Assembly: GCF_003473485.1 (NCBI RefSeq)
Contig: NC_053048.1
Location: forward strand, 13,949,501 to 14,013,500
Origin: Medicago truncatula
Taxonomy: Eukaryota > Streptophyta > Magnoliopsida > Fabales > Fabaceae
Reading direction: 5' to 3'
Length of the DNA: 64,000 nt
A model generated the notes under the pieces. That model was given only the letters and a program-made list of their open reading frames with translations. It was not told where the DNA came from and ran no database searches. This document shows, piece after piece, positions 2,588 through 35,343 of this stretch (positions within the stretch are counted from its first letter, which is position 1; every line of letters starts with the position of its first letter). A program made the translations under genes and the position numbers.

Positions 2588-2925
2588 ATCGCTCGCCTCC
2601 CGAGTGATGAACCTCGCCATAGCGAGTGATGAAGATCATCGTTCGCCTCGCGAGCAGGAGTTGTTCGCCTCGCGAGTTGCATTTCGCAGCTCGCCATAGC
2701 GAGCAAGTTTACTCGCCGTAGCGAGTGTGGGCAGAGAGCTTGCACAATTTCGCATTTTTGAGCTGTGAGTTTAACCTTGGATGTTTATGAGGGCCTGAAC
2801 ATGTACCTTAATGATTAGGCAAAGTTTTAGAATGAGATTGAACTCGGGAATGAGGCAGAATGGATCCTTGAGCGTTATACCCTAACTCGCCGTGGCGAGT
2901 AGAGGCTCTCGCCTTGCGAGCTAGT
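2588..2925 (+). repeat. Cluster of CTCGCC..GCGAG palindromes inside LTR
   Basis: About eight short near-palindromes sit here, such as ACTCGCCGTAGCGAGT, TTCGCCTCGCGAG and CTCGCCATAGCGAG. They occur in a GC-rich patch of an otherwise AT-rich LTR, downstream of its donor-like motif. Equivalent clusters with other cores occur in the other Tekay-like LTRs of the window. Confidence 0.85.
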
Positions 2926-3419
2926 GCTTGACAGACTGCCGTGTGTAGGTTTCTCGTGGTTTTGTCGCACGAGTAGTTGTGGGTTGAACTTTGGGATAAC
3001 AATGAAAGATGTATAGGATATAAATGATGATATGAGAAGCTGGTTATGACGAATTGAGGTTATTAACATGATAAACTTGTATAAGTATTACTTGATTATG
3101 AGAAAATGTTAGACATCGTTGAATTGCATAAGATACTGTTATATCACGTTGTTGTATACTGTTGTGTTGCTGTTGATTGATTATGATTGTTGATGAATGC
3201 TGGTTTATACTTAACTGCATTCAATTAGAATATACAATGTGTTGGTTCGGTTGTAAGTTGTGAGTTGTCGTTATAAGTAACGGAGTCATAGGTTGTTGAT
3301 GTTGACCAAGTTGGGGAGTGAGTCATAGTTATTGTGCACGGTCGTTGTCGTTGCCTATGTTGTCGTAGTTGAGTTGTATGCTGATATACACAAGTTGAGT
3401 CCTTCATGATTAGGACACT

Positions 3420-3580
3420 GTTGAGGGCTCATGCCCTGGAATGCTATGTCATTCAATCGTTGAGGGCTCATGCCCTGGAATACTATGTCATTCAATCGTT
3501 GAGGGCTCATGCCCTGGAATGCCTTGTCATTCAAATTGTTGGGGGCTTATGCCCCGGAATGCTTAGTCATTCAACCCGTT
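3420..3580 (+). repeat. LTR-internal tandem repeat, 4 x 39-40 bp
   Basis: Four tandem units begin GTTGAGGGCTCATGCCCTGG and end near GTCATTCAA. The motif resembles the 44-bp repeat at 15564-15838 in another LTR. Confidence 0.9.
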
Positions 3581-4601
3581 GAAAATAGTACCACGTTGTT
3601 GCTGTTGTAGATGTTGTTGAGAGAGTTGTTGTTGTAGATGTTGTTGAATGAGTTGTTGTCGTAGATGTTGCCGAGTGGAGTGTTGTTGAATGAGCTGTTA
3701 TAGTTGTTGATAAATACTGATGTGTCGTTGTTGTTGATTAGATTAGTAAGTGTTATTAAAATTGAAGAAGTATGATTATTATTATTGGATAAATGTTGTT
3801 AATTATGTTATTTAATTAAGTTGATGATTTATATACCTATTATTATTGTTTGTGAATCTCACCCCTTCTGCTTGGAATTGTCACCCTTCGTATGGGTAAC
3901 TTGCAGGTATTGAAGAATGTTAGAAGTGGTGGCTCAAGTGTCTTAGGGCTCTGATACGTAACGGGATGGGATATTGTTGTCATGTTTTCATTCCTTATGT
4001 ATCATTATGAACTTGTTGAATGTGGATTTTTATCTTTAAAGATATTTTGTTGAGGCCATGTGCCAAGGGTTATTGGAAGTTGTTTTAACATTGAAAAATA
4101 CTTTCCGCTGCAATGAACTGATATTTTATCAAAGTTGAATTTAATAAATAGTACTTTATTCTATTTATGGATTTTTGAAAAGCAGTGTAGCATGCCCGTT
4201 AGGTGTTAAACTCTGATTTACTTTTATATTTATGTTGTTGGGAAAACGGGGTGTTACATTTGTCACCATGACGGACCAATGATCCTAAGACACCTCTTTT
4301 ATTATTATTGTTATTTTCTTTTAAACAAAAATACAACTTTCTACCTTCTAAACTTTCAATCTAATCATTATTTAAAGTTAATTGAATTCATAACTCCCTG
4401 TCGGAACGATAATATATTTTTACTACTTCGATAGAACCGTGCACTTGTGGTTTTATCGCATCATGTTTTTGGCGCCGCTGCTGGGGAGTTATTGTAATTT
4501 GATTAATTTTTTTTAACGGTTAGACTGAAAGAAGAAAAAAAATTCTTTTTCTTTCTTTTTTTTTTCTTCTTTTTTTTTCTTAGTTTTTTACTGTTAACTT
4601 C

Positions 4602-7600
4602 TTGGGTTCTTATTCTTTTATGCGAAGAAACAAAAGTCTTGGTGAATTCGTTCCCGAGATCGAAAGATTCTTACATAAAAGAAGATGGAAAACACATAAT
4701 AATACCGATATGGCTGAGGAACGTGCTCTCAAAGAGTATGCAATCACATCTTCAGATGAGCCATACGATGCTATTGTGTATCCAACGGTTGAGGGTAATA
4801 ATTTTGAAATAAAGCCTGCACTTATTTACTTAGTGCAGCAGAATCAATTTTTCGGATCACCCACTGAGGATCCGAATTTTCATATTTCAACTTTTCTAAG
4901 ACTCAGTGGAACCTTGAAGGCAAACCAAGAGGGCGTAAGGCTGCACCTCTTTCCTTTTTCCTTAAGGGATAGAGCTAGTGCTTGATTTCATTCATTGACA
5001 ATTGGTTCTATCACTTCATGGGACCAAATGAGGCGAGCCTTCCTTGTCCAATTCTTTCCCCTTTCTCAAACCGCTCAATTAAGGGCGAGGCTTTTTCAAT
5101 ACACTCTGTTATCGCGATTTTCGGGTGTCAAGTCATTAATTAGGCTTGAACCTTTCAATCTTTGATATTCTCTATTTTTTCTTGGGAAGGGCAAAATTGA
5201 GAAAAAACCCTTAGATTCTAAGTTCGGGGGTCGTTTTCACTACGGAAAGGTGTTAGGCACCCGCGGTGACTATAGTACTCTATAGGAGCCGTTTTCTTAG
5301 TTTATGTCTACGCTTTATTTTTAATGCTATTTGTGAAAAAGGAAATTTATTTATGTTAAGAATGGGGGGAAGAAAGTGTTTGAGGTTTTATTTTAGTGGA
5401 CTTGGAGAGGTTTTGACCTCATGCCTACATACCCATTTAAGGGATCAAACTCCATGTAGTTCTCTCTCAAAAAATGTTTTTTGCGTGTTTGGTTGATTTT
5501 AGTTTTTTGTTGGAAAATGATTTTGAAGAAGAGAAAGAGGCCTTAAAGGCATAAGAGAGAAAAAGGGTGAATGGTTGGTTCAATTGTTATTAAAAAAGGT
5601 CTAAGTAGGAATTAGGATTCATTTGGATTTGTTTAAGAAAATAAAGGAAAAAAAATCAATGGAGTTTTGACTCCAAGGTTTGTTTGGAAAGATTTGAGTG
5701 ATGGAATTGGTTTACTATTTTTTTGAAAATTGGCATTTGTCTAAAAATCGCGTTTCCTAAGCATACATCTAAACGGTAAACATGCAACGTGTGTGCGTGT
5801 CGGTGCTTGTGTCGGTGTACATCACTAATAGTGTCCATAGTCCTTTACATTGAGTCCTAAATACATGCTATGGTCTTGCAAGGAATAAAAAAAGGAACTA
5901 ATCTATCTAAAATTATTACAAACCCATTTGATATAGAAATGAATAGAAAAATGATGCCTAAACTATGGGATGAATGAAATGTGAGATGAAATGGTTAGTA
6001 TCATAAGGCATAAGAATAGTAGAAAGGTAAACAAAATTGAATAGAATAGCAAGGGAGAAAAGAGTAATGAAATGAAATAAAGTGGCAAAATATACCTAAA
6101 ATTGGTTATGACACTTAGACATGCACATGACCTATAATCCCCTCATTATAGCAATGTTAAAGGGGTTTGATTTTGAGCTATAATGTGGGAATAAATAGGA
6201 CATATTCAAGCCAAGAATCATGACACATTTTTTAAAGATATTTTGCACTTTATTTCTTGACAAAAACACACATTGCTTGCAAAACAAGAAAGACATGAAA
6301 ATCTACATCCACAATCAGCAAGATATACACATGATCAGCAACACATTCACCATGAAATTACACACCAATCATCCACATCACATGCCAACATTTTATGAGA
6401 AAATATACCGCAAAAATACACAAACTTAGATCAAACACAAAATTAATCAAGAAAAAATAACACACACATTTTATCATTTTTTTAAACCACTGGAAAATAT
6501 CACAAAAGTGTTAAAATGTATTAAGAAACATATAACAATTTTTTTTAGGAATTTTTAGAGAAAAGATTAAGCACACAGAGGTTCAATTAGCAAAAAAGCA
6601 GGGTGCAGACAGCACAAAAATGCAAAAACGAAAAAAAGAAAAGCCCAAACCAAAACCAAAAGATCTGGAGGCACAGGGAGCGTTGGATCAATCTAGAGGC
6701 TGAGAAAGAAAGGGAAGAACCGAAAATAAACCGGACCGGTTCAATGTTCTATATATATGCTTCAATTCCGGTTTTTTTCATATTCTTCCTTTCCCTTCTC
6801 TCTCTTCTCTCATCTAGTGAGAGAAGCTCTCACTTCTCTCTAGAATTCCGGTTGTCTTCTCCGGCGTGGCTCCCCTTTCCGGCGCGGCGGACGGCGGTGG
6901 CGCCACCGCGCCGGAGCTCAAAACTTCTCCGATTCAAAATTTTTTTGCACTTTTAAACATCCTTTTTTGTCTACTTCTCGAATCCGAGCTTAGATTTTTC
7001 AGAAAAGGTTCGAATCGGAGTAGATCTGAGTTTGAATCTTGACAAAATTTGTTGAAAAAACGGAAGGAAAAGGAAGAGGAAAGCGAAGAGGATTACCTCT
7101 TCGTCGCTGAGGCTCTTGTTTCACGATCTGGACTCGCGACTTTCGCGATTTTGGTTCGGCCTTGTGCTTCGTCGCGTTCGAACTCTTTCTTTTTTTGATT
7201 TCTTCTTCTTCTCTGGTTCGAGCCTTTCGCGCTTTCCCTCTTCTTCTCTGGTGCGAGCCTTTCGTGATCGTGCTTGAGTCTGTTGCTAACAGCGATGGAT
7301 TCGCACTGGAATTGCGAAAGGAACGGTTTGATGGTGACGATTCAAGGACGAATCGCTGAGAACTGTAGAGAAATCCGAGAGATTTTTGTCGAATTCTAGT
7401 GAATTTGTGATGAATCTGTGAGTTAGGGTTTGGGATCTTTTTCTGTGTTCTTGATGATTTCTGTTTTGATCTGTAACTGAAAGGAGAGAGATTGTGACTT
7501 CTGTTTGTGATGTGGCGTCTGATTGTGTATCTGATCTGGAAATTTCTGACACTGTGCTGTATTTATAGCTGACATGTGTACCTGAGAACCAATGAAAAAA

Positions 7601-9413
7601 TGACATCTGGACTTTTGTGAAGAAGGCTCGGCCTTGGACTGAAATTTTGACTTAGGGACCTTGCTGCAAAAAGGAAAAAATAAAAGGACTAATCTGCAAT
7701 TATGAAAAAGGACTAAAAAATGCAATTTTAAAAAGTATTGGACTAAAATGCAATTTTAGAAACTGTTTCAGGGACTAAAATGCAATAAAAATAAAATTGG
7801 ACTAAAATTGGTAAATTGGACAAAACGTAAAGTGAAACCAAAAATAAAATCAACAAAAGGACTAAAATGAACCAGCTACAAAAATGAGGTATTTTTAAAA
7901 TACCTCTCTACCGAAATTTTGACAGGAAAAGACCAAAATGCCCCTAGGGACTAAACTGACTCAAACTGACTCAGATGCAATTTTTGAAATGATTTTTAAA
8001 CAAAGACTCAACAATGATTTGTACAGACAAATTGAAAAGACTCAGAGACAAACACAGGGACTAAAATGGGTTCCACTGCAGGAAATGACCAAAATACCCT
8101 TTTGCATGATTTTTTGAAATAAAATGCAAGAAAAGTAATGCGACGTTTCAGAGGATTCTTAAATGACTTGTAATGTCAGAAAAGACAAAGGCAATAAAAT
8201 ACGTTTAAAAAGAGAGTAAAGATTCAGAGTAAAATAGCAGAGAGTTGACAAATATCAGTTGTTAAAAAAGAAATTTGAACGAGTATTTTTAGGTCCAAAA
8301 TCAGGGTACAACACACTCAAAAAGATGGTGAATCTCTTTAGGATGCGTGGGAGCGTTTCAAAGAAATGCTTAGGCTTTGCCCCCATCATGGTTTAGAGAA
8401 GTGGCTTATTATCCGCACCTTTTATAATGGTCTTTTGTATACCACAAAAATTTATGTTGATGCAGCTGCAGGTGGAGCTTTGATGAATAAAACTTACACA
8501 ACAGCATATGATTTGATCGAGGACATGGCACAAAACCACTATCAGTGGACAAGTGAGAAAGTCATCACTGCTTCTTCACCCTCTAAAAAAGAGGCAGGTA
8601 TGTATGAAATTTCTTCCCTTGATCATCTAGCTGCTAAGGTTGACGCACTAACATAAAAATTTGATAAAATGAATACTAGTGTTGTCACACCTGCCCCTGT
8701 ATCACCTCCTTGTGAAGTTTGTGTTGTATTTTGCCTTATTGGCATTGATTGCCAACTAGGTAGGGTTTTTAGAGGTCCTGAGCAAGTAAACTATGCTCAG
8801 TATAATCAAGGGTTTAGAAACAACCAATTTTTTTTCCAAACCTCTCAAAATCTTTTTGGACAACAAACAACACCACCTAGTTATGCAAACAACCAAAGAG
8901 TCCCTCAAAAATTCAGCTTGGAACTTTTAATGGAAAATTATGTTATAAATCAATCCAAGTAGCTCCAAGAGCTTAAAAACCAAATTGGATTTTTGAATGA
9001 CTCTCTTGCCAAAATCACATCCAAGGTAGACTCCATAGCAACTAACAATAAGATATTTCAAACCCAGATCTCTCAAGTGCCCAACAAGTGACTGCTTCCT
9101 CTCAAACCACCAGAATCTTTCCAGGTCAAACTGAAACCAACCCCAAAGGCCATATAAGTTCTATTACTCTTATGGATGGTAAACAATTAGAGGACCCCGT
9201 TGTGAAAATTAAGAACAATGAGGGAGAGATAAGGAGTGATGAGCCTCAAAGTGAGAAAACTATAGGAGAGAATGAAAAGCCATTTGTTTCACCACCTCAT
9301 GAGCCTAAAAATCCATTAACACAAGGTTTTGTCAAATCCAAGTTAGATGACCAGTTTAGGAATTTTATTGAAATACTTCCAAACAAATTGCCATCTAAAC
9401 TTAAGAATCCATA
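4602..9413 (+). pseudogene. Gag-like remnants of the Athila-like element
   Basis: Fossil gag-like coding sequence is recognisable at 4602-5106 and 8314-9413, separated by the Ogre-type solo LTR. Translated text such as RLCPHHGLEKW and YDLIEDMAQNHYQW is typical of Athila gag. It is followed by protease-like sequence. The fossil is broken in several places. Confidence 0.7.
5107..8313 (-). mobile_element. Ogre/Tat-type solo LTR (3207 bp)
   Basis: On the minus strand it starts TGTTGTACCCTGATTTTGG and ends AAAATCGCGATAACA. It is flanked by a 5-bp target duplication CACTC (5102-5106 and 8314-8318). A minus-strand TATA box CTATAAATA near 7560-7570 is followed by leader-like sequence. The conserved stretch around TTCGGGGGTCG (5224-5234) and GGTGTTAGGCACCCG is typical of Ogre-type LTRs. 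It sits within the gag-like region of the Athila fossil and is therefore younger than it. Confidence 0.8.
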
Positions 9414-9559
9414 AAATTTTTCCATACCTTGTGTCATAGGATCTGAAACCATTGAGAAAGCCATGTGTGATTTGGGAGAGAATGTTAGGTTGATGCCATT
9501 ATCCCTTTGGGAAAGATTGGGTATAGGGTAGAGAAACCTCTTGATTGTCAAGCTAATGA

Positions 9560-10966
9560 CTTTAAACGAGCGCTTCGTGGGAGGAAACCCACGAGTTTAA
9601 TTGCTTTTATTTTGTTTGTTTTGTGTTGTTTTAATTTGTTTTGTAGGTATTTGTCCAAATATGGTGCGAAAAAATGAAGAAAATTGAGCATTGCATGTCC
9701 AGAAGCTTGGCACGGCCCGTGCCTGTGGTGGCACAGCCGTGCCATGGTCCCGGACCCTCTTTTACCCATTTTTTTTACTTTCTTCTTCTTCCTTCATTCT
9801 CAAACACAAACTTCCCTCATCCTTCAACTTCTCTCTATAAACCTCCATAACATCAACCTTTAAACCTCCATATCTATCTCCATTCATCATTCCAAACATT
9901 AACCACCAATCAAAACCAACATTCATCCATCCAAACACCAAATTCTACACCATTAAAACCTAACCCAAAAACCAAAAAATTCTTCACCAATCTCCATCAT
10001 TCAACTCATAAAACTCACTTAAACTCAAACACCATCACTAAACCAACCTTTCCCACACAAAACCTTGCCTAACCCTAACCTTCACCTAAAACCCAAACCA
10101 AGTCAACTAGGTCAATGACATACAAAAGGAAAGGTAATGAGATTGAAGCCTCCGGAAGTGGTGCAAGCAAGATGTAATCAACAACCCGCAATCATGGGAT
10201 CCAATTCAAGGATTCCGAGCAAAGAAATAGGTATAATTCTCTAATCTCTAGAACTATCTCTCCTTGCAGGTACCCTGATGTTAATGCTATGAATAGACTA
10301 GGAATATATGAACATGTGATTAGGCTGTTGAATAGACTTCACAACCCTGTGCTTAGGTACCTTCAAAGGGTTATGGCTTGCACCATATGGGGTAGAAAAG
10401 AGGTAGGAATGATGAGGACTGTTGTGCTATTTATGATGTGGGCTATGCTTTATAACCACCATGTTAACATTTGCTATTATTTGCTTTATTATCTTGTTTC
10501 AATTGCTAGAAAGAAACCGTATATAAAGGTGATGTAGTCGTAGGTGGAATCATCACTTTCATTGTTAGAAAATTTGAGGTAAATGTGAACAACGGGATAA
10601 ATAAGATTGAGGGAAACTACTATCTAGACTTAGAAACCCTCACTACCATGTTTTTTTTCTTATAATCCATGGCCCTTCTCACAATTACCAATATGAGTGG
10701 AGAGTCAATAATGATAATTGCTTGATTATTCTACCTAATTCGGACATTACTAATTCGGAGGTGGTAGAAAACTATGTTTATGTTGGCACTAATCCACAGG
10801 TACACAATGATGGTGATGATGGTGGTGATGAAGAGGAGGTAGGTGCAAACTTGCACCATGAACAAGAAGCCGGTGGAAACTATAATGATGAACGGTGGGC
10901 ATGGATGCAAACCGAAGTTCAAAGAATATGCACCGAGCAACGAAGACAAGGTGTTGAAATGATCAG
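9560..10966 (+). other. 3' internal region of the Athila-like element
   Basis: It contains GCGCTTCGTGGGAGG (about 9570) and palindromic GGCACGGCCCGTGCC text (9709-9723). A 350-bp pyrimidine-rich stretch follows (9775-10130). Weak open-frame remnants (10289-10537 and 10722-10966) resemble the late ORF region of Athila elements. No host gene was seen. Confidence 0.5.
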
Positions 10967-12395
10967 TGTAACGCCCTATTTTATTATTTATTTTATTTTA
11001 TTGAGTTTAGAGTCTTTTTTATAATTTAATCGATTTATTTTGATAAGTGATATTTTTGTTGTGTATGATATATATTATTAGACCATATTTTATTATTTAG
11101 TGGAGAAATATATTGATAGCCCGTATTTTATTATTGGCTTAATTGCATTTTTCCCCCCTATAGTTTACCAATTGTGCGATTTTGCACCCCATAGTTTTAA
11201 ACGAGCGATTTTGCCCCCTATAGTTTTCCCACTTTCTGATTTATGGTCCCCGTGACATTTAGTGCTGATCTGTCTGTTTTTTATCAATTAATGTGTGCCA
11301 CGTGTGTAATTCTATTTTTTTAAAAATAAAAAAAAAAAGGTATTTTTCAGATTTTGAGAGAAGGAGGCACGTGATATTTCTTCTTAAAATCTGAAAAATC
11401 ACGTGCCCCCTTCTCTCAAAATCTGAAAAATACCATTTTTTTTTTTTAAAAAAAAATGGAATTACACACGTGGTGTAACACCCCATTCCCAAATATAATT
11501 TATCTAATAAAATAAACGCACATCAGAGTAATAATTCTAATGGGCATGTCACACTTCGTTTTCAAATTTTCTTAAATAGAAATATAAAACTATTTAAAAT
11601 AACCTTCATCAATAATATCATTAATCTGCAGCGGAATAATTGAATTTAAGCAACAACATCAACTGTTTTAAACTTCCAAAAACATCTTGGCATAAAAAGC
11701 CTCAACCAGAATAATCCAACAATTAAAGGGCTACAACAACATTATCCAAAATTTGATACATAGGAATGAAAGAAAACAATAAAATTCCATCCCACGTATC
11801 AGAGCCCTAGACACTTTGAGCCACCACCTATTACTCGGGATCACCTGCAAGTTACCCATAGGAAGGGCAACATTTCCAAGCAGAAGGGGTGAGATTCTCA
11901 ATCAATAAAAATAATATATAATAACATCAATTGAAAATCTAACACCTTACAACATCAATGATTATTCAATAAGCATAGGTATTTCATAATCAACAACAAT
12001 CATCCAAGTATAGAATTCAATCAACAAATGCAACTCATGATATGACACGACACCCTCCCTCAATACTCCTCAATAATGCAATTATGCATGTGGTACCATA
12101 ATTTAGGGCCGTTACCCACACCGCTGTCGAATGGTTAAAGCATTCTCAACAGGACCTAAGTCCTCACCGCTCCACACCGCTTTGAACAACTAGTGTTCCA
12201 CCGCTTTGAACGACAAGGCGTTCCAGAGCCGAAACTCTCCCACTTGATGTTTATGCAACTACCCAACCTGTGTATATCAACATACAACTCGACTATTACA
12301 TATGTTTCATATGACTTACTACTCCACAACTCAAACAATCCAGAACATACACAATTATTTATAATTATGCTCATACATCAATCACATTCCACATG

Positions 12396-12432
<37 letters not shown>
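12396..12432. repeat. (TA)n microsatellite
   Basis: An uninterrupted TA dinucleotide run of about 37 bp inside the family 2 solo LTR. Confidence 0.95.
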
Positions 12433-12435
<3 letters not shown>

Positions 12436-12612
12436 GTATTCACTTGTTTTCATACACAATCACCTCCAACATTACTAACACCAATTAATCCAATCCTCGG
12501 CTCGTTCTAATAGGATTCGGTTACCTACACCAGGGTTATACTAGTTAAAAGAAATATTATAGAATGCTCAAGAAGTCCCCTCATGCACGAAACAAAAGTT
12601 CAGAAGGCTGAC

Positions 12613-12915
12613 TAAGGCTCACTTCGCTTAAGCGACGGCTAGTTCGCTTAAGCGACCGGCTTATAGTAGGTCTGGGTTCAGCTCGCTTACGGGTCGCTCA
12701 CGGTTCGCTTGAGCGAACTTTGGACAGAATCAAAAATTGTTTTTCGCTCACGGGGTCGCTTATCATTCGCTTAAGTGAATTCTTGGCAGAATCGAACTTA
12801 ATTTTCGCTTACCAGTTCGCTCACTGTTCGCTTAAGCGAACGGGTAGAATCGCATTCTGGGCAGTTTCCTTGAATGCTCGCTTAAGCGACGGATGCTTCG
12901 CTTAAGCGACCAATC
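12613..12915. repeat. Cluster of TTCGCTTAAGCGA palindromes inside LTR
   Basis: At least eight copies or close variants of TTCGCTTAAGCGA and TCGCTCACGGTTCGC occur in 300 bp. This is the counterpart of the CTCGCC..GCGAG cluster in family 1 but with a different palindrome core. Confidence 0.9.
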
Positions 12916-14824
12916 ATCTGGGCAGTGCAAAACCTACGGTTTCAGACCTCTTCTCACTCCAAAAACCCAATTTTAATCCCCCAATCACCCAAAATGTTTT
13001 CCAGCAGATGTTCACAGGTCCTATATACAACTAAGCATCTAAGGAAACACCAAAACAGCCATTAACAGCAACAATCACATATCACTCCACCATTATACAA
13101 TTATTCATCAATTTATCCAACCAAGCATAATTTCAACCAATTTATGATCACAGCAATAACATAGATTAAGTCTTCAATCTGAACAGCATAATACAAGAAA
13201 ATTAACATGATCATTACCCATTTCTCTTCATAATCATCATCAAACCCTAACCCTCAATTTATTTTCCAAAACTATGCAATTAGGTCAATTTCAGGAATTA
13301 TAAATTATGATTATTGAGAGATAGTCTCACCCTTACCTTAGTTTTGCAGAAATTAGACAGCAAGGATCGGTTCTAGGCTCACTCTCTTGTTCTTGCTCTT
13401 CTTCTCCCTTTTCTCCCCAAAGCTAGTTTCTTACGTTAAAACGTTCTGACTGTTTTTCTTTCTCTCTTAACCTCTTTCTTAACTCCCTTCAATTCTATTA
13501 ATTCCCCTTAATTTTAATAAATTCTAATTAACTCCCTAATTTCTAAAATAATATTAATTTTCACTTATTTTAATTATCATTATAATAAACTATATAATAA
13601 AATGCACACATCATATAAATCGCCAAAATCATATAAAATCACATACGAGACTCTAAACAAATCAAAATAAAATAAAATAATAACTAGGGCGTTACACGTG
13701 GCACACATTAATTGATAAAAAACAGACACATCAGCACTAAATATCATGGGGACCATAAAATCAAAAAGGGGGAAAACTATAGGGGGCAAAATCGCTCGTT
13801 TAAAACTATGGGGTGCAAAATCGCACAATTGACAAACTATAGGGGGAAAAGTGCAATTAAGCCTTTAGTATTTAGTGGAGAAATATAATTAATTAGAATA
13901 TTGAGGATTGGGGGCAGAATTGGAAATAAGGGAAAAATAAGTAGGTTAAGAATTTATATAAAGAGGAGAGTCAAAGTTAGAAAATTAGAATACGTGCAAA
14001 CTGTTTTTTTTGGGAGAAAAGGGAGAAATTGAGAAGTTAGAGAAAGAGAAGAGGAGCAAGCTTGTAGAGTCTGTAATCATCTAATCTAAGGTAAGGGTGG
14101 GACTAGCTTTCTCTAATAATGGGTTTTATGATTCTAAAAAGGGGTTTAACATGTTGTTTTGTTATTTTTAATGTTATAGAAATTAGGGTTAATTTGCAAA
14201 GTTGATCGTTGAAAGAGAAGGTAAACTATTGATTTAACGTAAGGGTGGGATTAACTTTCTCTAATTTTAGGTTGTATAATTCTGAAATTAAGTTTAGCAT
14301 GTTGTTGTTTGTAATTTTGTTGTTGATAATTTGGATGTTATAGAAGTTAGGTTTGAACTGCAATTTGATTGTTGAGAGATTATAATTTGAGAGAAATAAC
14401 CTATGGTAAAGTGAACCATAGAATTGAACGGTGAAAAGAGTGGTTAATCAGGTAGGTTAGTGATGGATTAACGTTCTAATGATAGGGTAATCATATGGTT
14501 ATAATTATGGACGATTTTGGAGAGTTTAGGGTCAAGAAACGGAGCCAAGGAGGCTCCCATGGTAGAAAATCGCAGAAAAATAAGTGATTTCAGCATGTAT
14601 GATGATGTCGAAATCGTGAGGCGATTCCAGTGATCGTGAGGCGATTTTGACAGAAAATCTGTAATTTTAGTATGTCTGATGCATACTCTGTTTCATGTTC
14701 TTGTGTCTTTTTCACACGTTTCTGTTTTGAACTGGCCTTTGGTGTAAACATGAAAGTTTTAGATAATTGTGTTAGCTTTCTAGTGGCTTTGGTTTGACTT
14801 GAAAATGATATTTGGTTTTTGAGT

Positions 14825-15467
14825 TATGATGAAAATACTCCAAGGAGGTCTTAGTGAAATTTTATGAAAATTCAGCATAACCGTTTCTAAGTCGATCCAA
14901 AACTTATGGAATAATTCCAAACCTCAAAACTAGAAGTACTATGAGTTCAATTAAGGTGTTTCAGAGTATTTAACCTATGTTGTGATGAATCTAACTTGGT
15001 TTGATGTGAATATCTTTGTTGGATGATTTAATATCTATATGAATGTATATGTTGATGAATATGAGGTTATATGATGTTGATCATGATTGATGAATTATTA
15101 TATGAATGTATATGTTAATGAATATGATGTTATATGATGTTGATCATGATTGATGAATTATTATATGAATGTATATGTTGATGAATATGATGTTGTTCAT
15201 GATTAATGAATTATTATATGAATATCTTTGATTGATGAATTATGGTATTATGATGAAAATACTCCAAGGAAGTCTTAGTGAAATTTTATGAAAATTCAGC
15301 ATAGCCGTTTCTAAGTCAATCCAAAACTTATTGAATAATTCCAAACCTCAAAACTAGAAGTACTATGAGTTCAATTAAGGTGTTTAAGAGTATTTAACCT
15401 ATGTTGTGATGGATCTAACTTGGTTTCACGTGAATATCTTTGTTGGATGATTTAATATCTATGTGAA
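14825..15467 (+). repeat. Direct duplication of about 200 bp inside LTR
   Basis: The sequence beginning GATGAAAATACTCCAAGGA occurs at about 14828 and again at about 15250 with few differences over some 200 bp. Between the copies lie 60-70-bp repeats based on GAATGTATATGTTGATGAAT. Confidence 0.85.
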
Positions 15468-15563
15468 TATCTTAGTCGTTGTTGTTGTCGTTGTCGTTGT
15501 TGTCGTCAATGTCGTTGAAGTTGTTGGTTGTTGTTGCATTTGTTGCTGAGTCCATGCATAATT

Positions 15564-15838
15564 ATTAAAGTTGAGGGCTTGATGCTCTGGAATGTATAAT
15601 CATTCATATTAAAGTTGAGGGCTTGATGCTCTGGAATATATAATCATTCATATTAAAGTTGAGGGCTTGATGCTCTGGAATGTATAATCATTCATATTAA
15701 AGTTGAGGGATTGATGCTCTGGAATATATAATCATTCATATTAAAGTTGAGGGCTTGATGCTCTGGAATGTATAATCATTCATATTAAAGTTGAAGGCTT
15801 GATGCTCTTGAATGTATAATCATTCATATTAAAGTTGA
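15564..15838 (+). repeat. 44-bp tandem repeat, about 6 copies
   Basis: The unit begins ATTAAAGTTGAGGGCTTGAT and continues with GCTCTGGAATGTATAATC. Six copies differ by a few bases; the array ends where the LTR sequence stops. Confidence 0.95.
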
Positions 15839-17253: not shown

Positions 17254-17485
17254 AGGCGGAGGAGATATTAGTGAATAACATTAATGTGATCTTGTGTGAG
17301 TTGAGTTGTGATGCGATTTTGCGGATAACCAGCATTTCTTTTACGATAAATACTAACTAAACAGTAGCGTAATCTATTTCAGCCCATCACTTTCTATTTA
17401 CCAATTAATTAAACAAATTCTAATCTATTTCAGCCCCTAATCCGTATCTAAATTATGTTATTGATTATATTAATTATAAGATAAC

Positions 17486-18489: not shown

Positions 18490-18491
18490 AT

Positions 18492-24130: not shown

Positions 24131-24261
24131 GTTAATGTTAGGGTTAAGTAGTTTGTTAATATGCAAGCTTAATCATGTTTTAGTGTTTTTAAAGTTAGTC
24201 TTTGCACAGTTGCTTGTGGTGCAAGCTAGCTTAGTTGTTTTGTTACCTTGTCTATAAATAG
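24131..24261 (+). promoter_or_regulatory. TATA-bearing LTR-like fragment
   Basis: CTATAAATAGG at about 24250-24260 lies in sequence resembling an LTR promoter and directly precedes the open frame at 24262. It is probably a fragment of an LTR fossil. Confidence 0.4.
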
Positions 24262-25389: not shown

Positions 25390-26008
25390 CACAACTCCCG
25401 GGTATTATCCATGTGCCTAGGGTATTATCCATGTGCCTAGGGTATGGCTTTTGCCATATACCCATGCGCTAGGCACGCTAACCATGTGCCCCGTGTATCT
25501 GAAAATGGAGGGCACAAACATCTTTTCCTGCTTTTATTTTGGGTAAAGCCCGCACTTTTAACCCAAACTCGGGTAAAAACTCTAACTATAAATATCAGCC
25601 TTCCTCATTCATAAATTCTCGTTTTGAACTGTGGCAGTTCAAGAGGAAGATAACTTTGGAGTTCGGGAGAGTTTCTATCTTCTCCTTGATTTTCTAGGGT
25701 ATGTTTTTATCTTTAGTAATCTGTTTTTAGTTACCATGTGTAACTAAATCTTCTTAGGTTAGATTTCTAAGATGAACCTCTGTTTATTTTTGTTGGATAT
25801 TTATTTAATACAATATGTCGTTTATTTTGTTTATTCTTTTGTTCGCTATTAAGTTCCTGATTTAATAATTTATTTCAAAGGATCGTAACCTTAGATTAGG
25901 TACTTAGGTTGTGGCAGGGCCTAACACTGTTATTACTATCTTGTTGCTTATATCTTGATATTTATAGCATTATACTAGTAGTTATATGTCTAGGAAGTAA
26001 GTGATTAT

Positions 26009-28821
26009 TGTAACGCTCCTATTTCTATTAAAGCAATTAGACATGCGAATAATACATTTATTCAAGAAATAGAGATTACGTCTTATTCAAAATTAAAAAA
26101 AAACGATAGACATGTATGTAAACCTCAACAGTTACAGCGGAATACAAATCAGAGTGATTAAATATATACATGCCATGAGCAAATAAATCATATCCCAAAG
26201 ATAAATCTCAAAACCCAAACATACGGGTAGTCATCAACAAAATAATAATTCAAAGGAAAAAAATATAACAACCTAATCTAGACCGACACGACAAGCCTAG
26301 ATCAGAGCCGACACAACACCGATATCGGAGGAAGCTCCCGATATCCCACGCAAAGACTCACCGAGACTACTCCTGCACAACGTCTACTCACCCATACAGG
26401 CAAGTAGGCGGTTAAAACCACTGGGGGTAAGCATTACATTATCATAATCCAGATAATAATCAAAACAGATAATATCATGTACTTGAATAATAATAATCAT
26501 GCATAAATATTTACATCACCACTTGATAGTTCGTATCCACATATATCAATCACATGAATAATTTATCCAATCACAAATATTCATTCACAACATCAATCAT
26601 AGACAATCATTATCAACATTCATTCATCTCAATTCATCACCAATCACATAATTCACATAGGACTCATGCTATGATATGCACTTATGGACACATAAATGCA
26701 TGCGGTACCAAATCTCAACAAGGTCGTCACCTTTCGATGCCACTTGCACATCGAATGTAAGGGCTCACACCTGCCTTACAATAATCTCGAAGTAAAAGAG
26801 TCATCCATTTTACAGCAACAACGACTATGATGCATGGACATGTATAAGGACTCGATAATGCGACAACAATCCACAATTTCAACCTCAATATATAGGACGA
26901 CACCCAATTATATTGATTATCTCCACACATTGCATTATCAAGAAAACATGTCCACACACAATTAAATCATAGTATTCATCAACACACATCAACATGATTC
27001 TCAATAATCAACAATGTCATTCAACATCAACTATCACATATAGTTTCACCATTGCAAGCATTCTCATATTCCAAGTAATATAGCATACATATCTCATGAT
27101 AAACATCATGTCCAAAATATAATCACTCATTCATACAACTTCACTTAGTCATAGAAGAATGGTCACAATAATTCATAAGACAATACGACACAAAGATTCA
27201 CTAGACCCCTTTTTCACAAGGTTAATTCTTTCATAAAAATACCCCTAGATGATTAGGATAAAGTCCCTACACTTAGGAAGAAGTTTGGAAGTAATTGGAT
27301 CAAAGAAATTGCATTTTTAAGGTTTCTAGGCTGCCAAAATCGCTTCATGACTCATAAGATCACTTCATGATTTTGACAGCATCAGACTGAGTAGAAAAAT
27401 TTGATGTTGCTGTCAAAATCGCCTCATGATTTGCGAAATCGCTTCATGATTCGACAACATTAGGCTATGCAGAAAATTTATTGTTTCTGTCAAAATCACC
27501 TCACGATTTGTAAGATCGCTTCATGATTTTGACAGTAGCAGACTATGCAAAATTCAACTTCTACGTTTTCGCGCATAAAAATCAAACCGTTAATCCGTTT
27601 TCGATGCCGTTTTCGCCTACATGCTCCTAACACTTGGCACTATCATAATTTACAAAAATTTCATGTTTCAACCATCCCAAAAGTCATTTTCCAAAACCTC
27701 ACATAATCACTTATTGGCGAAAACGCATAAACATCGACATTTCACACGAAAAACCCGTTTTCTCCCAAACAACTCAACTAACATAACCACAACATGAAAA
27801 CAGAAATTCTCCTAGGTTCAATCCATCCAACAATAACAAAATTTCAGTCAACAACCATAAATATCAAAGTTCAATTTGGTCCTTCACATGAACACTTAAC
27901 TCAACTTCACCAATTTCACAAAACCACCAATAACATCTTATTTCTCATCAACAATTATGGTATATGAACACCCAAGCCTCAAATCATACTCAACAACATA
28001 TCTCAGCAACAACAACATCAATTACATATGATTTACATCTCATTTCAACCAAAACATATCAAATTTCATCAATTAAGTATAATTTCATAACTTAACATTT
28101 ATACATACTTTGAAACATGTAATTTCACCCACAAACATACCATAATCATCAATTCATGCACAAGAAAATAACATTACAACAAGAGCACGAATTTAGCCAC
28201 AATTGTTCATCAACCCATTTTCATACAACATGAGAAAATGCAAAAATTGTACATGATTATGATAATAACTAACCCCCTTACCTTAGAAGAAGATTAACCC
28301 AAACTCTTGCTTCAATTTAGCTCCTAAGCTTACCCAATTGGATTCTTCAAGTTCTTCTCTCCAAAACCCTTTTTCTCTTCTCTTCACCTCTTTCTCTCTC
28401 TACCTCTCTCTAGAAATGTTTGTGAAATGAATGAATTGGTTCTCCTAACACAACCCTAGTGTTATCTCTACTAATGGGCTTAACTTAGTTTCTAGTGGGC
28501 TTAACCCATTTCTATTCAAACCAAAAATATTACTACACTCCAAACGATATTTTAATTAATAACGGTAAAATGTCACTAACGGTAAAATCTAATCATTACA
28601 CTAGTAACTTAGTAAAATAAGGGTTCTCACTAATTATTAAAATAATTCTCACCAAAATTACCATTTTACCCTTACCCGTCAAATGACTAAAATACCCTTC
28701 TAATACGGTAATCCACGTAAATGCACCAGACGACAATTAATACACACAAGCATAAATAATCACACACAAACACATAATAAAAGTAATTAAAATAAATCTA
28801 GCTAAAAATCGGGCTGTTACA
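26009..28821 (-). mobile_element. Tekay-like solo LTR, family 4 (2813 bp)
   Basis: On the plus strand it starts TGTAACGCTCC and ends GGGCTGTTACA. The 5-bp target duplication is ATTAT (26004-26008 and 28822-28826). The inverse of the donor motif, CCCCTTACCT, is at 28274-28283. A palindrome cluster lies at 27330-27545. It looks complete as a solo LTR and is inserted in an older LTR. Confidence 0.9.
27330..27545. repeat. Cluster of AATCGCTTCATGATT-type near-palindromes inside LTR
   Basis: At least six variants occur of AAATCGCCTCATGATTTG, AATCGCTTCATGATT and ATCACTTCATGATTTTGA, spaced 20-40 bp, alternating with TTTTGACAGCA text. It is the counterpart of the clusters in the other LTRs. Confidence 0.8.
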
Positions 28822-29520
28822 ATTATTAACTAGCGAAAGATACCGAAAGAAAGTTGATAATAGTAGTAAGTACTTAGGAGGTGACATTACTAATATTGAG
28901 TAGTAACTCTGCTGAACCTAGGATGTAACAGGTTAGTAATTAGGGAAACAAGCATCTCTAGGGAATGACCTTTATCGAACCATTCTCTTGAAACTCTTAG
29001 TAAGGTAGACGTAGATTAGGGCTGCCCATTTGTAGAACTAATATGAGCGTAAAGAAGGTGTACTATGAGTGTCCTAAGATTCATATATAGGATAACCTAA
29101 GGGAACCTTGGCCTTCAGTGCCTTGGGAAACACTAAAACGCCAATTTAAGTTTATGTTTCAATTACCTTTCAATTAACAAGACCTTGCACGTCAAGATCA
29201 CTGTGCGATCAACATGTGTAGTTAGCCATCAGAGGGATAGACCAATTCATTTAGTAACGCCCCAACGACCTCATCACTTGTATAGTCTACCTAAGATAAT
29301 TAAACGCGACATTACTGTTACTTAATATCCAACAATATAAACAGGGGGGATTCCACTTTTCTCCAACCAAAACATGTAAACTTGATAAAAATTGCAAGCT
29401 TTCTAAACCTTAACTTTTATATCGTCAAACTTACAAAAATAAGTAACGCGAACTGTTTGGACGAAACGACAATCCTTGTGGATATGATACTCTACTTATC
29501 ACTTTATTAATTGGTAAACG

Positions 29521-30077
29521 ATTTGGTACACTTACCATATCCGACCATCGTGATGCTAGAACATCCGAGCGAGGGAGATAATTATTTCTCAAAGTCACCA
29601 ACTCAAAATTTGGGTCGTGAAAAGCTCAAAATTGAAACAAATCATATTGTGACTTCACAACTCACGATCCTTGCTATCAACGTTACTAATCACTTCGAGG
29701 AATGAGGAAGAGGAGATTATCTCTAGTGGAGATGCACAACAAACACACTTACAATGTAAAACAGATTGAAGCCGAATGTGGGTTGTCGTGATCCCGCTAA
29801 CAAGGAAGTAATAACGGAAAACACACAAAATTAGCTGAATGAAGGTTTAAGTATTGTAAGACACGTTGTTTGACTAATAAATAATAATTACATTATAAAT
29901 ACTCTTGTTCATACATTGTAATTAACACGTATAATCAATAATAAAAAGCTTCTTTTTTTTTTTGGAGGAAAAATAACTTATATAATTTCATTCAAAATTA
30001 AATCAGTGCGTAGCTATGTTTCAAAATAATCATAAAATTTCTGATACACAACATAAGCACCTGTTCATGGCTACTCG
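29521..30077. other. Unassigned sequence between LTR relic and LINE
   Basis: A weak 64-codon frame (29511-29705) has no recognisable similarity. The rest is AT-rich. Confidence 0.4.
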
Positions 30078-33030
30078 ATGCGAGGATCATATCGCTTTAT
30101 TACTAATTCAGGTGAAACTTTGGATATGACTCTTGTTGACGACGTCTGGCATAAGCATATCCCTTCAAAGGTGTCTCTGTTGGTGTGCCTCTTATGTAAC
30201 AGACTTCCTACTAAAGACAACTTGATGCGTCAGGGTATTCTTCCTTCAAATGACACGGTGTGTGCCGGTGGGTGTAGTAACTCTGAAACAGCTAACCATC
30301 TTTTTCTACAATGTGAAACCTTTAGTCAGCTTTGGTCCAATGTGTGGAAATTGTTAGGTATATCTTCAGTTCCTTCTGGTGAGCTTCGACATCATTTTAT
30401 TCAGTTTACTAAGATGGCGGGCATGCCAAGATTTTCTCATTTATTCCTAAGGATAATTTGGTTTGCTACTGTTTGGGTGATATGAAAGGAAAGGAATAAC
30501 CGTGTCTTTCAAAATACAGTTTCTATCTTTTTATTCTCATTGAAAAAGTTAAGCTAAATTCATTCTTATGGTTGAAATCAAAACAGGTGTGTAACAACCC
30601 GTTTTTCGCTGGAATTATTTTAATTATTTATTATGTGTATTTATATGTACTTGTATGTGATTATTTGTCTATGTGTGTATTTTATTCGGGATTAGTTAAT
30701 TTTGGCTTAAGAATGGCATTTTAGTCATTTTAGACTCATGGGTATCTTGGTCATTTAATGAGAAAGGGTAAATTAGTCTTTTTTGTTACGATATTTATTT
30801 TTAGCGTTTTAAGTAGGAATGATTATTTTTACTAAGTTACTAGTTAGTTGGGATAATTATTCATTATTTTGACGTTTTAGGTGTGTAGTAACTTTGGTGA
30901 CTTAGTTGGTAAAAATATTGAGCCCATTAAGACAACTAGAGATTAAGCCCATTTATGTAGTGACTATATAAATACTAGTCTTGTGAGAAAATTAGGCCAT
31001 TACATTCATTCACTCATTTTTACAAAACATTTTGAGAGAAAGAGAAGGGATAGAAGAGGAGCTAGAGAGACAAAGCTTAGGATTGGAGGTTAGGAGCTAA
31101 ATTGAAGTTAGGGTTTGGATTCTTGAAGATTAAAGGTAAAGGGGATAGTTTCTTTTCACTAATTAAGTTATAATCTCTTAATTTCACTTATGGGTTTAAG
31201 TGTTTTTGTAGTAATTGTGATTTTTTGTGGGTTTGAATGATAAAATTCGTGCTCCTATACCATGTAAAATTGTGGGTATGATAAATTTCATGAAATGGTT
31301 GTGTTAAGAGCTTAAACTTCATAGTTGTTGTTGAGTTGTTTTGATGAACTTTTATTATCCTTTATATCTAATCCTAGCAAACATGCAAACCCTAATTGCA
31401 TAAACCTAATCCTAAAAAATGGCTTCAAAAATTTGAATTTAGAAATCAATGTTTTCCTTCATAGCCTTCCCACTCAGAATTTATATTGGTCGGTTTTCCA
31501 TGCACCTAGGTACATGGAAAACCTAGGTGTGTCCAAGTTTATTCTTTTCAATTTTTGAGAAACCTCTTTCTCTCTCCATATGTGTGTCCATTGCGAGAGA
31601 GTTTTCACCTCTACAACTAATACAAAATTTCTAGGGTTTCCGATTCCCCTATTTTCTTTTGCTTCAATCATTTAATATTTATCTCTTTCTTTGTTTTCAT
31701 CATTTCATTTAATTTATTCATTCTCCAAGCTTGAACTTATCATTCTTTATTTGATCATAAAATATTCTCTCCTTTCTCCTCTTCATTTCATCAATTCCTT
31801 CATTCTCATATTTTTCTTGAATTTCCAAGGAATTAGCTATGAAACTGGGGCGAAAATGGAATTGAAGGAGGTCAAGTGATGGTTGACTGGATTTCTTGAA
31901 CGCAGAATCACATTGCACGAAGATGGTGGTGGAAGGTGACTCAAAGGATTGCAGATGCAACGTTCATTGCCTCAAAGGATTTCCATGTAAGGATATGTTC
32001 TTAAACTCTTTTTTTTAATTGCGATTTAAGAACTTTGGCTAAATTTGTTTATGGTATCTTAATTATATGATGTTGTTCATTTACATTATTGAGAGAAAAT
32101 GTAGAAAGGAATATAAATTTATAGAATACTGCAAATTTATAAAACTTCAGCTGATACAAAATCATATAGAACACTGCACACTAACAGAAGTACATGAATT
32201 AATTTAACTTTTCAATACACAACTCAAATTATCACGGATGTCTTTTGATTTTTGTTTGATTCTTATACATACCTATATTATGCTGCAAATTTTCTGCATT
32301 TTCTTAACATGCAGAAAATCCAAACTCTAGGTCTCTATTTAAGTAGTACATTTAAGTGTCTAAATCAATGCAAAACATATTTCTTTGAAATTACCAAAAG
32401 GGAAAACAATTAGAACTGTTAGACTTGACTGTCATGCCTATTTCATAAATATTAAACACTCCATTTCATTTATCAATACCCTAATTTGTTTTTACAAGAA
32501 CAGATCCCCTACATAACCATTGAATTATGTATACCGACCAAGTTTGCTTTAAGGTTCAACGAATGTGTTTAATTCATGATATTGCTTTATCTCTTGCAGG
32601 TTTGGACAATCAATATGAAAAAGTTCATGAGAAAGCTTACACGTGAGGCATATTAAATTTTTTGTTTGACTGAAAGAATTACCTATTTTAGTTTTTGAAT
32701 GGGGTGTTTTTGTCAATTTTTGAACTTTAGGTAAGTTATACACATATATTACCTATATATAGGGTTTAAGTTATTTTGTTGTCTATATTATGTTTGCACC
32801 CTTTAAAAAAAGAAATTGTTCAAAATAAATCGCATAAAATTTTTCCTATCACTCTAAACTATGTTAATAAAATCTATGTATATGAATCTTCTAAAAAAAA
32901 ATATGCGTGAAAGGAATTTTTTAAGAGATATCAGTACTATATATACTTGAAGATCGATCTTGGGTAATTTTTTTGTTGTATTATATGTCAACAATATAAA
33001 TGGTTAAAATAGCAGTGTTGTTTGCTTTAA

Positions 33031-34568
33031 TCTATATATAAAATTGAAAATAAATAGTGGTAAAATAATAACTAAGACGTATATATTGAATACATTTTTT
33101 TCTTGGTCTAGTATATATTGAATACATTTTATCAAGTACTATTGAATATCTAACTATTAGAATAGCTTCTCCTTAAAAAAAACTATTAGTGTAGCTTCTG
33201 GTTAACAATGCCAAGTTTTATTAGATGCAAGTTTTTAGGAGTGCAAGTTTTATTAGATGCAATTTGTAGCAACATACCTAATAGATTCATTCATATATGG
33301 GCCAATTTAATGATGGGGAGAGGGAAATTCGAATTCAAATATAGAAGGTAGAAAGTCACCAAGGCTAGTGGGTGAATGTCATTAATTACACTTGTTAAAG
33401 CTTCTTAAGGAAGCTAGGTTTAGTTGTTAAGGAGGGAATTAAAGAGTGTAATTAGGGTTAACTAATATTACTCTGCATGATCATATTAGCAAAATGCTTG
33501 ATAGAAAAGACTGAACCCAATAAGATAAATATTTTGAAATAGTCTTGGTATATGTAGCATAGTGATTGTTTTAATTATGCTTGAAAATTGCAGGACTTAA
33601 CACTTGGAATAGGCAACCAAGATCCTATCTTCAAGCAACACAGCTTACCAAAGGGTGAGGTTGGTTACCCCAATGTAATTTTTAACCCTTTGAAATTTGC
33701 ACCAACTTTGGAGGCTAAAGAGAAGTAAATTTCTAACGGTAGATTGGCAATGTTGACATTCTTGGGATTTATCAGTCAGCACAATGTCACAGGAAAAGGA
33801 CGATTTGATAACCTCTTGCAGCACCTTTCAGACCCATGGCAAAACACCATTGTTCAAACACTGAGTGGCGGCAACTAAAGTGTTTGTTGTATCCAATGAC
33901 ATGAAAGCCTATGTTATTCTAATGTAATCATGAATGGATGAATTTTGAAAGATATCTGAGCATGATTGTTAAGATCCTGAATTTATTTCCATGTACAGAG
34001 GAATTAAGTGGTTTTTTAAAAAAAATAGGCATAGGTGTACCTTAGTGGTGATGGAACTCTTTTGCAAGCCATCCATTTAATATATGATAATTCCCGTTCT
34101 TGGAGTGAAATCAAATCCTACATATATTTGAGTTTTATATGCATGTAGTCTTGGTTTAATTTTAATGTCTTGACTTTACTATATAAACAATTTATGTGAT
34201 CTTTTGGATTATACCAATTTGAGTTTTAAATTTATTACTAACAAGATTCATAAATTGACAAAAAAAGTAATTGTTTACCTCTTATAAATAGAACAAAAAA
34301 ATATAACGAGAAAGATTAATCGTTAAAAAACAATAGTGCTTCAACTCTAATAGACATTTACGATAGAACGGATGACAATGAAGATTATATCAACACCACT
34401 TCAAATGTAGTGTATAAAGATATATTCCAAAATGTGTGAATAATTGTTATATGTCCTAAAATATTGATTATGTTGAATTGTTTTCTTATCTATATAATAG
34501 ATCATATTGCAATATATTAGCTTTTCCATTGTTTATGACTCGGGCGGTAGCACGGGTAAAAGTTCTAG
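33031..34568 (+). mobile_element. Helitron-like element (inner) carrying an Lhca4 exon
   Basis: The 5' end TCTATATATAAAATTG at 33031 follows A. The 3' end is a hairpin-like CTCGGGCGGTAGCACGGG, then TAAAAGTTCTAG ending at 34568 and T. These fit Helitron ends and an A|T target. It contains the Lhca4 fragment at 33594-33878. It is also possible that the 33031 start belongs to the outer 3' end at 34954. Confidence 0.55.
33594..33878 (+). pseudogene. LHCA4: Lhca4 last-exon fragment (PSI antenna protein), pseudogene
   Basis: Reads in one frame for 95 codons and matches the C-terminal third of the photosystem I chlorophyll a/b-binding protein Lhca4: [19 protein letters not shown], then [27 protein letters not shown] and [19 protein letters not shown], ending at TAA (33876-33878). 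The GRLAML helix motif of LHC proteins is present. An in-frame TAA at 33726-33728 replaces the residue after EAKEK. A TTGCAG acceptor directly precedes the exon, so it was copied from genomic DNA with intron sequence, not from mRNA. No upstream Lhca4 exons were found. It sits inside a Helitron-like element, suggesting capture. It cannot encode a working antenna protein. Confidence 0.93.
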
Positions 34569-35306
34569 TAAGCTTTTATAATAAGAAGATAAATGAATAA
34601 ATTTTAAGGTTTGCATTCAATTTTGGATGATGATTTTAATTTTTTTATCATGTTTGGCTGTTGCGCATGCCTTTAGTTTTTCATATGTTTTAATAGTAAA
34701 AGAAAATATTCATTTGTATGAACTGCATGAGGATTGTGGTCGTGTGTACGGGCTGCTGCTATATCGATAATACTTCGAATGTAGTGTTTAAAGAAGTATT
34801 TCGAAATTTGTGGACATGAGAAACTTCCATTAAATTTGTAGTCGAAATTAAGACATTAAAATTATAAGTTTAAATTGTGCTATTAATATTTTCTTTTTGT
34901 CTGTTACATTTACAGTGTACATGACCTGTGCGGCAACACGGGTGGAAAGTCTAGTTTGGGTGGAAATCATGAATTGGAGTGTGATTGTTGTTGAAACATG
35001 TTTGAATTTATTTCATTAATGCTTGTTGATGGAATTTGAATTGGTGTGGTTGTTTTGAAGTTTGAATGAAAAATAAGAAAAATGGTAATTTTTGGTGAAA
35101 ATGAGCTAGATGATGATTTTGAGATGAATTGGTATTACAATCCCATGTTTGTTGTTGATTTAAATGCATTTTTATGTTTGAAATCAAGTGTATAAGTTTT
35201 GGGGGCCGAATTTGGGGTCAAAGGGATAAAAATTGGAGATTTTGGATGAAAAATTGGGAGTTCCCGACAGGGAACAACCCGAACAGGGTGACCTGTTCAA
35301 GTGTAA

Positions 35307-35343
35307 CTCGCTAGGCGAGTTGGAACTCGCTGGGGCGAGTTGC
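35307..35343 (+). repeat. ACTCGCTAGGCGAGT palindromes inside LTR
   Basis: Two adjacent near-palindromes, ACTCGCTAGGCGAGT and ACTCGCTGGGGCGAGT. Counterpart of the clusters in the other Tekay-like LTRs. Confidence 0.85.

Follow-up and report, generated by a model that had tools for sequence, protein, structure and literature searches.

Palindrome patches in five long terminal repeats

We analysed 64,000 nucleotides (nt) of Medicago truncatula DNA (positions 13,949,501 to 14,013,500 of contig NC_053048.1; hereafter the window, to which all coordinates refer), in which five long terminal repeats (LTRs) of retrotransposons each hold a patch of short inverted repeats. The patches are real and far above chance, and they represent an inverted-repeat array with swappable cores that occupies one part of Ty3/Gypsy LTRs. 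LTR 1 (1987-4258, forward strand; 5' end TGAAACGCCCC, 3' end GGGGTGTTACA) contains a first sub-array of six units at 2588-2740 and an additional sub-patch of two units at 2885-2922 (fold z score -2.7, reached by 3/300 shuffles). The solo LTR 2 (11474-13696, minus strand) has its patch at 12613-12915, with TTCGCTTAAGCGAA units that are partly arranged as 61-nt repeats. LTR 3 lies on the forward strand in two pieces, a 5' piece at 10967-11135, which resumes at ~13865 beyond a nested element, and a second piece at 13865-15838, from which the 3' end is missing; its patch (14541-14660) contains GGAGCC..GGCTCC and two copies of ATCGTGAGGCGAT. An earlier note on this DNA needed correction here, in that 10967 and 14603 belong to pieces of one LTR, separated by the nested element that holds LTR 2. 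This inverted-repeat element (11136-13863) has arms of 170 nt (11136-11305 and 13694-13863); it encloses the solo LTR and itself splits LTR 3.

LTR 4 (26009-28821, minus strand) contains degenerate AAATCGTGAGGCGATTTTGACAG and long CTGTCAAAATCA/TGATTTTGACAG arms at 27330-27552. LTR 5 (30590-37163, forward strand) is interrupted by an insertion with approximate boundaries, whose size of ~3.6 kb is estimated from the distance between a splice-donor-like motif and the array in copies of the LTR. Its patch at 35260-35372 consists of five adjacent hairpins, two of them with unrelated non-TCGC arms (GTTCCC..GGGAAC and GAACAGG..CCTGTTC); two TCGC units also fold jointly as one foldback. No patch was seen in a truncated sixth LTR start (43039-43700, forward strand; donor-like motif at 43409).

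The motif TCGC-N0..7-GCGA occurs 16 times in the window, compared with a mean of 0.355 and a maximum of 2 in 200 first-order Markov sequences, and 15 of the 16 matches fall inside the patches that the earlier note had reported for LTRs 1, 2 and 5. Exact cores were found twice for CTCGCCATAGCGAG (2613, 2690), four times for TTCGCTTAAGCGA (12623, 12643, 12827, 12897), twice for ATCGTGAGGCGAT (14613, 14633) and once each for AATCGCTTCATGATT (27437) and ACTCGCTAGGCGAGT (35306). When each patch was compared with 300 dinucleotide shuffles, the fold z scores were -5.5, -4.4, -5.9, -4.0 and -8.4 for LTRs 1-5, and 0/300 shuffles reached any of these values. A second test consisted of a 120-nt sliding scan along each LTR. 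The patch was the lowest place in LTRs 1, 3 and 5 and the second lowest in LTR 2 (-4.6; -5.1 elsewhere in the LTR), and it was unremarkable in LTR 4 (about -1.9). The five patches lie at the places where the earlier note had put them.

The details of that description fared differently. Instead of five distinct cores we count four, since LTR 3 and LTR 4 have one in common: a few changes aside, ATCGTGAGGCGATTTTGACAG of LTR 3 corresponds to the LTR 4 unit read as its reverse complement. The TCGC..GCGA frame, described as largely kept, is exact in LTRs 1, 2 and 5 and not in LTRs 3 and 4. The similar position proposed for the patch, after the donor-like motif, applies to the order and not to the distance, which amounts to 267, 415, 452 and 723 nt for LTRs 1-4. 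Of the 30 LTR 5-family modules, 17 have a donor-like motif somewhere upstream, and in 14 it is 413-495 nt ahead of the query start. None of the contrary outcomes named beforehand (patches scattered, mostly absent or without excess over shuffles) occurred.

Carrier elements, distribution and landmarks

In family copies, the LTRs of families 1, 2, 4 and 5 terminate in GTTACA, and TTGGTATCAGAGC starts no more than three bases further on. A primer site, TGGTATCAGAGC, directly follows the LTR in copies of the LTR 1, 2 and 5 families and in a copy of the LTR 4 family; none was seen for LTR 3. We take TGGTATCAGAGC/TTGGTATCAGAGC to be an initiator-Met-tRNA primer site. Pfam scans covered four open reading frame (ORF) pieces of an element copy in a blindly chosen stretch (L196), an LTR 1-family gag and an LTR 2-family integrase piece. 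The copy in L196 encodes gag with CCHC knuckles, aspartic protease, reverse transcriptase (RT), RNase H, H2C2 integrase and an SH3 domain, in Gypsy order. The LTR 2-family piece matches the H2C2 integrase and SH3 domains, and rve matches were below the Pfam cut-off both there and in the L196 copy. An LTR 1-family copy has an internal region of ~1.2 kb with only a gag with zinc knuckles. Judged by these domains, the carriers are Ty3/Gypsy elements of the chromovirus type. The label Tekay-like holds as far as Ty3/Gypsy, on the basis of gag, protease, RT, RNase H and integrase; SH3_Tf2-1 was matched in the C-terminal piece and no Pfam chromodomain was found at E 0.001, and a placement in Tekay is best treated as a lead. 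Searches for integrase in viral and prokaryote contigs yielded no confirmed relative. A DNA pattern gave at least 120 stretches in viral contigs, which we took as chance because the pattern is short.

Modules of the LTR 1 family were also noted in rows of three with ~3.5-kb spacing, at C4:21161336-21168677 and C5:24630854-24638363, and look like LTR-internal-LTR-internal-LTR.

The genome from which the window comes (430 Mb in 42 contigs) contains 2168 matches to GTTACA-N0..3-TTGGTATCAGAGC, compared with 0 in a reversed control. LTRs outside the window were sampled in three ways, as (a) six 9-kb stretches picked blind by their coordinates, in which six LTRs, A-F (including C2), were examined, (b) ten stretches of 801 nt each, taken at every tenth junction among the first 100 in the list, and (c) three of the five AAGTTGG-type junctions among the first 100 listed. 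Patches were present in 16/19 of these LTRs, 14 of them recognised from the TCGC frame and the other two by eye. In sample (a), TCGC arrays occur in B, C2, E and F; A has three ATCGTGCCACGAT-like units, seen by eye, with a lowest z of -2.3; and D, a copy of the LTR 3 family met by chance, is without a patch. In sample (b), 8/10 stretches have TCGC units, L203 with only two units and a z of -2.9. The 801-nt stretches L206 and L208 contain no TCGC units; L206 resembles none of the compared LTRs, and the LTR pieces that L208 matches are all in antisense. In sample (c), two LTRs have TTCGCTTAAGCGAA arrays, and inspection by eye showed an array of GCGC type (CAGCGCTTGGGCGCTG) in the remaining one. 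Read from the positions, ten sampled LTRs and LTR 1 have two sub-arrays ~160-225 nt apart. Note that a first cluster counter was dropped from this survey; it had caught the LTR 5 patch alone and missed that of LTR 2.

The order of landmarks was compared across LTRs. TATA precedes the donor-like motif by 111-170 nt in 8/12 LTRs (the motif being mutated in D), and the patch follows downstream of this motif. In LTR 5, the TATA box TATATAAA is at 30965-30972 and the donor-like AGGTAAAGGG at 31134-31143, both on the forward strand. The donor-like AGGTAAGGG is at 2321-2329 in LTR 1 (forward strand; invariant in 6 aligned LTRs), at 13330-13338 in LTR 2 and at 28275-28283 in LTR 4 (both minus strand). 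Six LTRs selected for the presence of the donor were aligned; the donor 15-mer does not vary among them, compared with a mean column identity of 0.42. The acceptor motif was no criterion for this selection, and the acceptor region, ~350-375 nt before the LTR end, is 0.94 identical compared with a mean of 0.50. In LTR 1, the acceptor-like TGCAG/G is at 3902-3907 (forward strand), ~350 nt before the LTR end; an acceptor-like motif is also present in an LTR 4-family copy.

Several observations concern the same LTRs. The donor-like TAAGGTAAGGGTGAG, invariant in six LTRs, and the acceptor-like GTAACTTGCAG/GT delimit a candidate LTR-internal intron, placed at 2321-3907 and 11844-13338 (minus strand) in the window and in LTRs A, B, C2 and E. 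In the 3' part of the LTR, GCTCTGATAC occurs at 3948 (forward strand), 11796 and 42991 (both minus strand) and in LTRs A, B and C2, and is exact in 5/9 LTRs. It is complementary to the primer site ~300 nt downstream, and the region is 0.92 conserved in six LTRs; presumably it is similar to the 3' end of initiator-Met tRNA. GGTACC(A/G)CATGCA is found in 7/9 LTRs examined (2, 4, 5, A, B, C2 and E). LTR 1 has a second hairpin minisatellite at 3420-3582 (forward strand; 39-nt unit, with AGGGCtcatGCCCT and GAATGctatgtCATTC, hairpins by eye), and the second piece of LTR 3 includes a 44-nt minisatellite at 15563-15838; both show two hairpins per unit.

Core replacement and pairing within the arrays

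We examined how the array changes within the LTR 5 family, a set of 30 modules comprising that of the window and 29 copies of 73-86% identity. Regional identities were obtained from 27/30 modules, L178, L183 and L184 being excluded. With gaps counted, mean pair identity was 0.59 in the TCGC units, compared with 0.69 in hairpins 1-2, 0.72 in the upstream flank and 0.76 in the downstream flank; when gaps are ignored, the TCGC units score 0.71, hairpins 1-2 score 0.72, and the upstream and downstream flanks score 0.76 and 0.77. The TCGC units are thus the least similar stretch among the copies, a contrast that shrinks once gaps are ignored. In L167 and L173, two of four family members picked for a flank-versus-array comparison with the LTR 5 of the window, the flanks are 0.86-0.88 identical and the array 0.57-0.61; L160 shows no array drop (0.85), and L186 gave 0.62. 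L167 and L173 have a CTTAAG core in place of the CTAGG-type core, with the flanks kept. The same CTTAAG core is found in LTR 2, L205, L211 and L212, and cores therefore recur across LTR backgrounds, by exchange or convergence. Shortened arrays in L172, L175, L179, L180 and L184 indicate that units are gained and lost. Overall, array arms are as unlike as GTTCCC, GAACAGG, AACTCGC, ATCGTG and CAGCGC, a divergence that would suit selection on shape.

We next consider the pairing of arms, for which all statistics ignore kinship among the copies. A half-swap scan of the LTR 5 family reached its top z of 5.4 (0/100 shuffles) between two TCGC units. At this peak, pairing joins the right arm of a unit to the left arm of the following one; the resulting foldback of ~45 nt comprises an outer stem, GTGTAACTCGC/GCGAGTTGCAC, and an inner stem that varies. 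Native halves outfolded swapped halves, with 12/2000 shuffles as low in sense (25 copies, five shortened ones excluded). In 89 distinct units, the first position flanking the TCGC frame pairs in 66/89, compared with 51.9 when shuffled (0/2000), and the second in 44/89, compared with 33.9 (14/2000); positions 3-6 showed no clear pairing beyond shuffles. Covariation of the two halves was thus seen between the two TCGC units, at flank positions 1-2 and, modestly, at hairpin 1.

Stems of young LTR 1 copies were not significantly less variable than their surroundings (p 0.11 and 0.37), in a test biased by the choice of copies for similarity to the array. An earlier comparison of such stems (0.015 versus 0.034) was left unused for the same selection bias. 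An interpretation of the hairpin 1 and 2 loops as GNRA was also set aside, the second set (GTGA, GTAA, GCAA, GCGA) being also what CpG decay of GCGA would give. By eye, GAATG..CATTC in LTR 1 and GAACG..CGTTC in LTR 2 look compensatory.

The description of the patches as a conserved but fast-changing module thus stands, given their presence in 16/19 sampled LTRs, core change with the flanks kept and co-varying arms at some hairpins. Letters that vary between families while self-pairing is retained suggest a folded control element.

Possible roles of the module

We tentatively favour, as a possibility short of probable, the view that the patch is a rapidly changing array of hairpins in the leader of unspliced RNA and perhaps serves dimerisation or packaging. 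The patches form one module, a set of short inverted repeats in a fixed landmark order of chromovirus-type Ty3/Gypsy LTRs. Because the patch follows TATA, it would lie in the predicted 5' leader RNA, and its place between a donor-like and an acceptor-like motif would restrict it to full-length RNA that is not spliced. The hairpin cluster may act as folded RNA, recognised by shape more than by letters, so that cores could be swapped between families as long as the fold is kept. The hairpins might then help to mark genomic RNA for dimerisation or packaging, as retroviral leader hairpins do. Retroviral dimerisation and packaging signals reside in a group of short 5' leader hairpins that lies 3' of the splice donor and is absent from spliced RNA. 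The module resembles this group in being a cluster of short hairpins, placed behind a donor-like site in what is predicted to be the 5' leader; in contrast, it is located within the LTR, ahead of the primer site, and is far more variable. To our knowledge, the cis signals that select plant Gypsy RNA for packaging are poorly defined, and the module offers a short, testable candidate for such a signal. We consider it quite improbable that an LTR intron with the hairpin array serves as a fast-changing identity tag of genomic RNA, with self-complementary cores pairing like RNAs for co-packaging and core swaps between co-packaged families founding new families. If true, plants would have their own counterpart of the retroviral packaging/dimerisation signal, with its shape kept and its letters varied.

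A number of results weigh against a leader RNA hairpin array. Three of the 19 sampled LTRs are without a patch, and some of those counted are weak (A, L203). The exact donor motif is missing in D and F, the donor comparison was restricted to LTRs in which a donor was found, and in the LTR 5 of the window the acceptor-like site is altered to TGCATG. Comparing this LTR with L211-L213, upstream identity is 0.29-0.38, no closer than that of the array, and the downstream flank (0.40-0.58) alone supports a homologous place. The half-swap signal was modest at hairpin 1 (z 2.3-3.0), no covariation was detected for hairpin 2, for hairpin 5 or inside individual TCGC units (z at most 1.6), and RNAalifold gave no consensus structure on the LTR 5 alignment (28/30 copies). 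The native hairpin was better than its own mean chimera in just 15/25 copies, and antisense folds showed the same effect of native over swapped halves (5/2000). G.U pairs in the LTR 5 foldback number 69 in sense folds and 20 in antisense folds (25 copies), which speaks for RNA, but this count reflects shared ancestry and few independent positions. Across all hairpins of the 30 LTR 5 modules, chance ones included, G.U and A.C numbered 52 and 65, giving no RNA signal. No strand preference appeared when 30 LTR 5, 10/30 LTR 1 and 7/8 LTR 2 copies were folded, the sense z score being better in just 11/30, 4/10 and 2/7. Finally, the observed/expected (o/e) CpG ratio of the array is 1.2-1.6 in 7/9 LTRs, as in a DNA-level CpG island.

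The strand tests do not separate RNA from DNA action, and a DNA-level regulatory module, which we rate as somewhat unlikely, fits nearly as well as the leader RNA. Its palindromes would be dyad protein-binding sites and/or a CpG island setting LTR transcription and methylation. This would account for pairing without general strand asymmetry, for a TCGC/GCGA frame common to many LTRs and for arrays richer in CpG than the rest of the LTR in 7/9 LTRs; the arrays of LTR 4 and LTR 5 (o/e 0.91 and 0.73) are, however, no CpG islands. A precedent is found in Sirevirus LTRs, whose palindromic repeated motifs (RM) are described as having a kept CGG-CCG frame, variable cores and CpG islands (Bousios et al. 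2010, PMC2829016). Those motifs lie upstream of TATA, whereas the patch is downstream of both TATA and the donor-like motif, and arms without TCGC (GTTCCC, GAACAGG, ATCGTG, CAGCGC) seem ill-suited to one binding protein. It is rather less likely that the arrays have no function, with minisatellite growth, together with template switching at hairpins during reverse transcription, creating and re-perfecting inverted repeats at a tolerant site and so producing co-varying arms without selection. The tandem 61-nt units of LTR 2, the gain and loss of units and the variability of young LTR 1 stems agree with this, whereas the recurrence of arrays with different cores in the same part of different LTRs does not. 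Very improbable, in our view, is a host-facing role, in which the transcribed array is cut into silencing small RNAs and fast core change serves escape. Small RNAs are reported in excess on Sirevirus LTR palindrome clusters in maize (Bousios et al. 2016, via PMC10760457). Maize Ty3 elements, however, are described as generally without an obvious structure peak (PMC10760457), and escape would account for change and not for the retention of hairpins.

The leader RNA array and its alternatives were set against known systems. Like the Sirevirus RM of Ty1/Copia elements, the module is a cluster of short palindromes at one LTR place, with a common half-site frame, family-specific cores and, in 7/9 LTRs, CpG richness. 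RM are called a Sirevirus-specific feature, with one frame exception, Tnd-1 (PMC2829016). In contrast, the host here is Ty3/Gypsy by domain order and not Copia, the frame is TCGC-GCGA, some arrays having neither this nor CGG-CCG, the predicted place (from motifs) is downstream of TATA, and adjacent units are able to fold together. Since it differs in three defining features (host, frame, TATA side), we do not class the module as Sirevirus RM despite the similar layout. For BARE, a Copia element, spliced RNA and a separate packaged RNA are described, and dimerisation/packaging signals are mentioned as conserved; unlike the candidate intron here, its intron of 104 nt lies near the gag-protease border and not in the LTR, and the accessible part of that paper mentions no palindrome array (PMC3735527). 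The module is also similar to the LTR hairpin regions with a palindromic motif described for Copia among structured maize transposable elements; most of the sampled Ty3/Gypsy LTRs carry a patch, in contrast to what is reported for maize Ty3 elements in general (PMC10760457).

Among the open-licence papers listed, titles and abstract openings gave no report of such arrays in Tekay, Medicago or other LTRs, and searches with core strings gave no related paper, judged by title. The accessible parts of papers on the Lotus chromovirus LORE1 (PMC2832683) and on insertion-site palindromes (PMC6911290) had no bearing on the module. Arrays with replaceable cores in most sampled LTRs of an abundant Ty3/Gypsy group would suggest that distant retrotransposons reached or kept a common solution.

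Two tandem repeats lie elsewhere in the window. A 60-nt array with 11 copies in register (44226-45113) overlaps a minus-strand ORF at 44291-45127, and a 303-nt repeat (63151-64000) overlaps a minus-strand ORF at 61833-63995.

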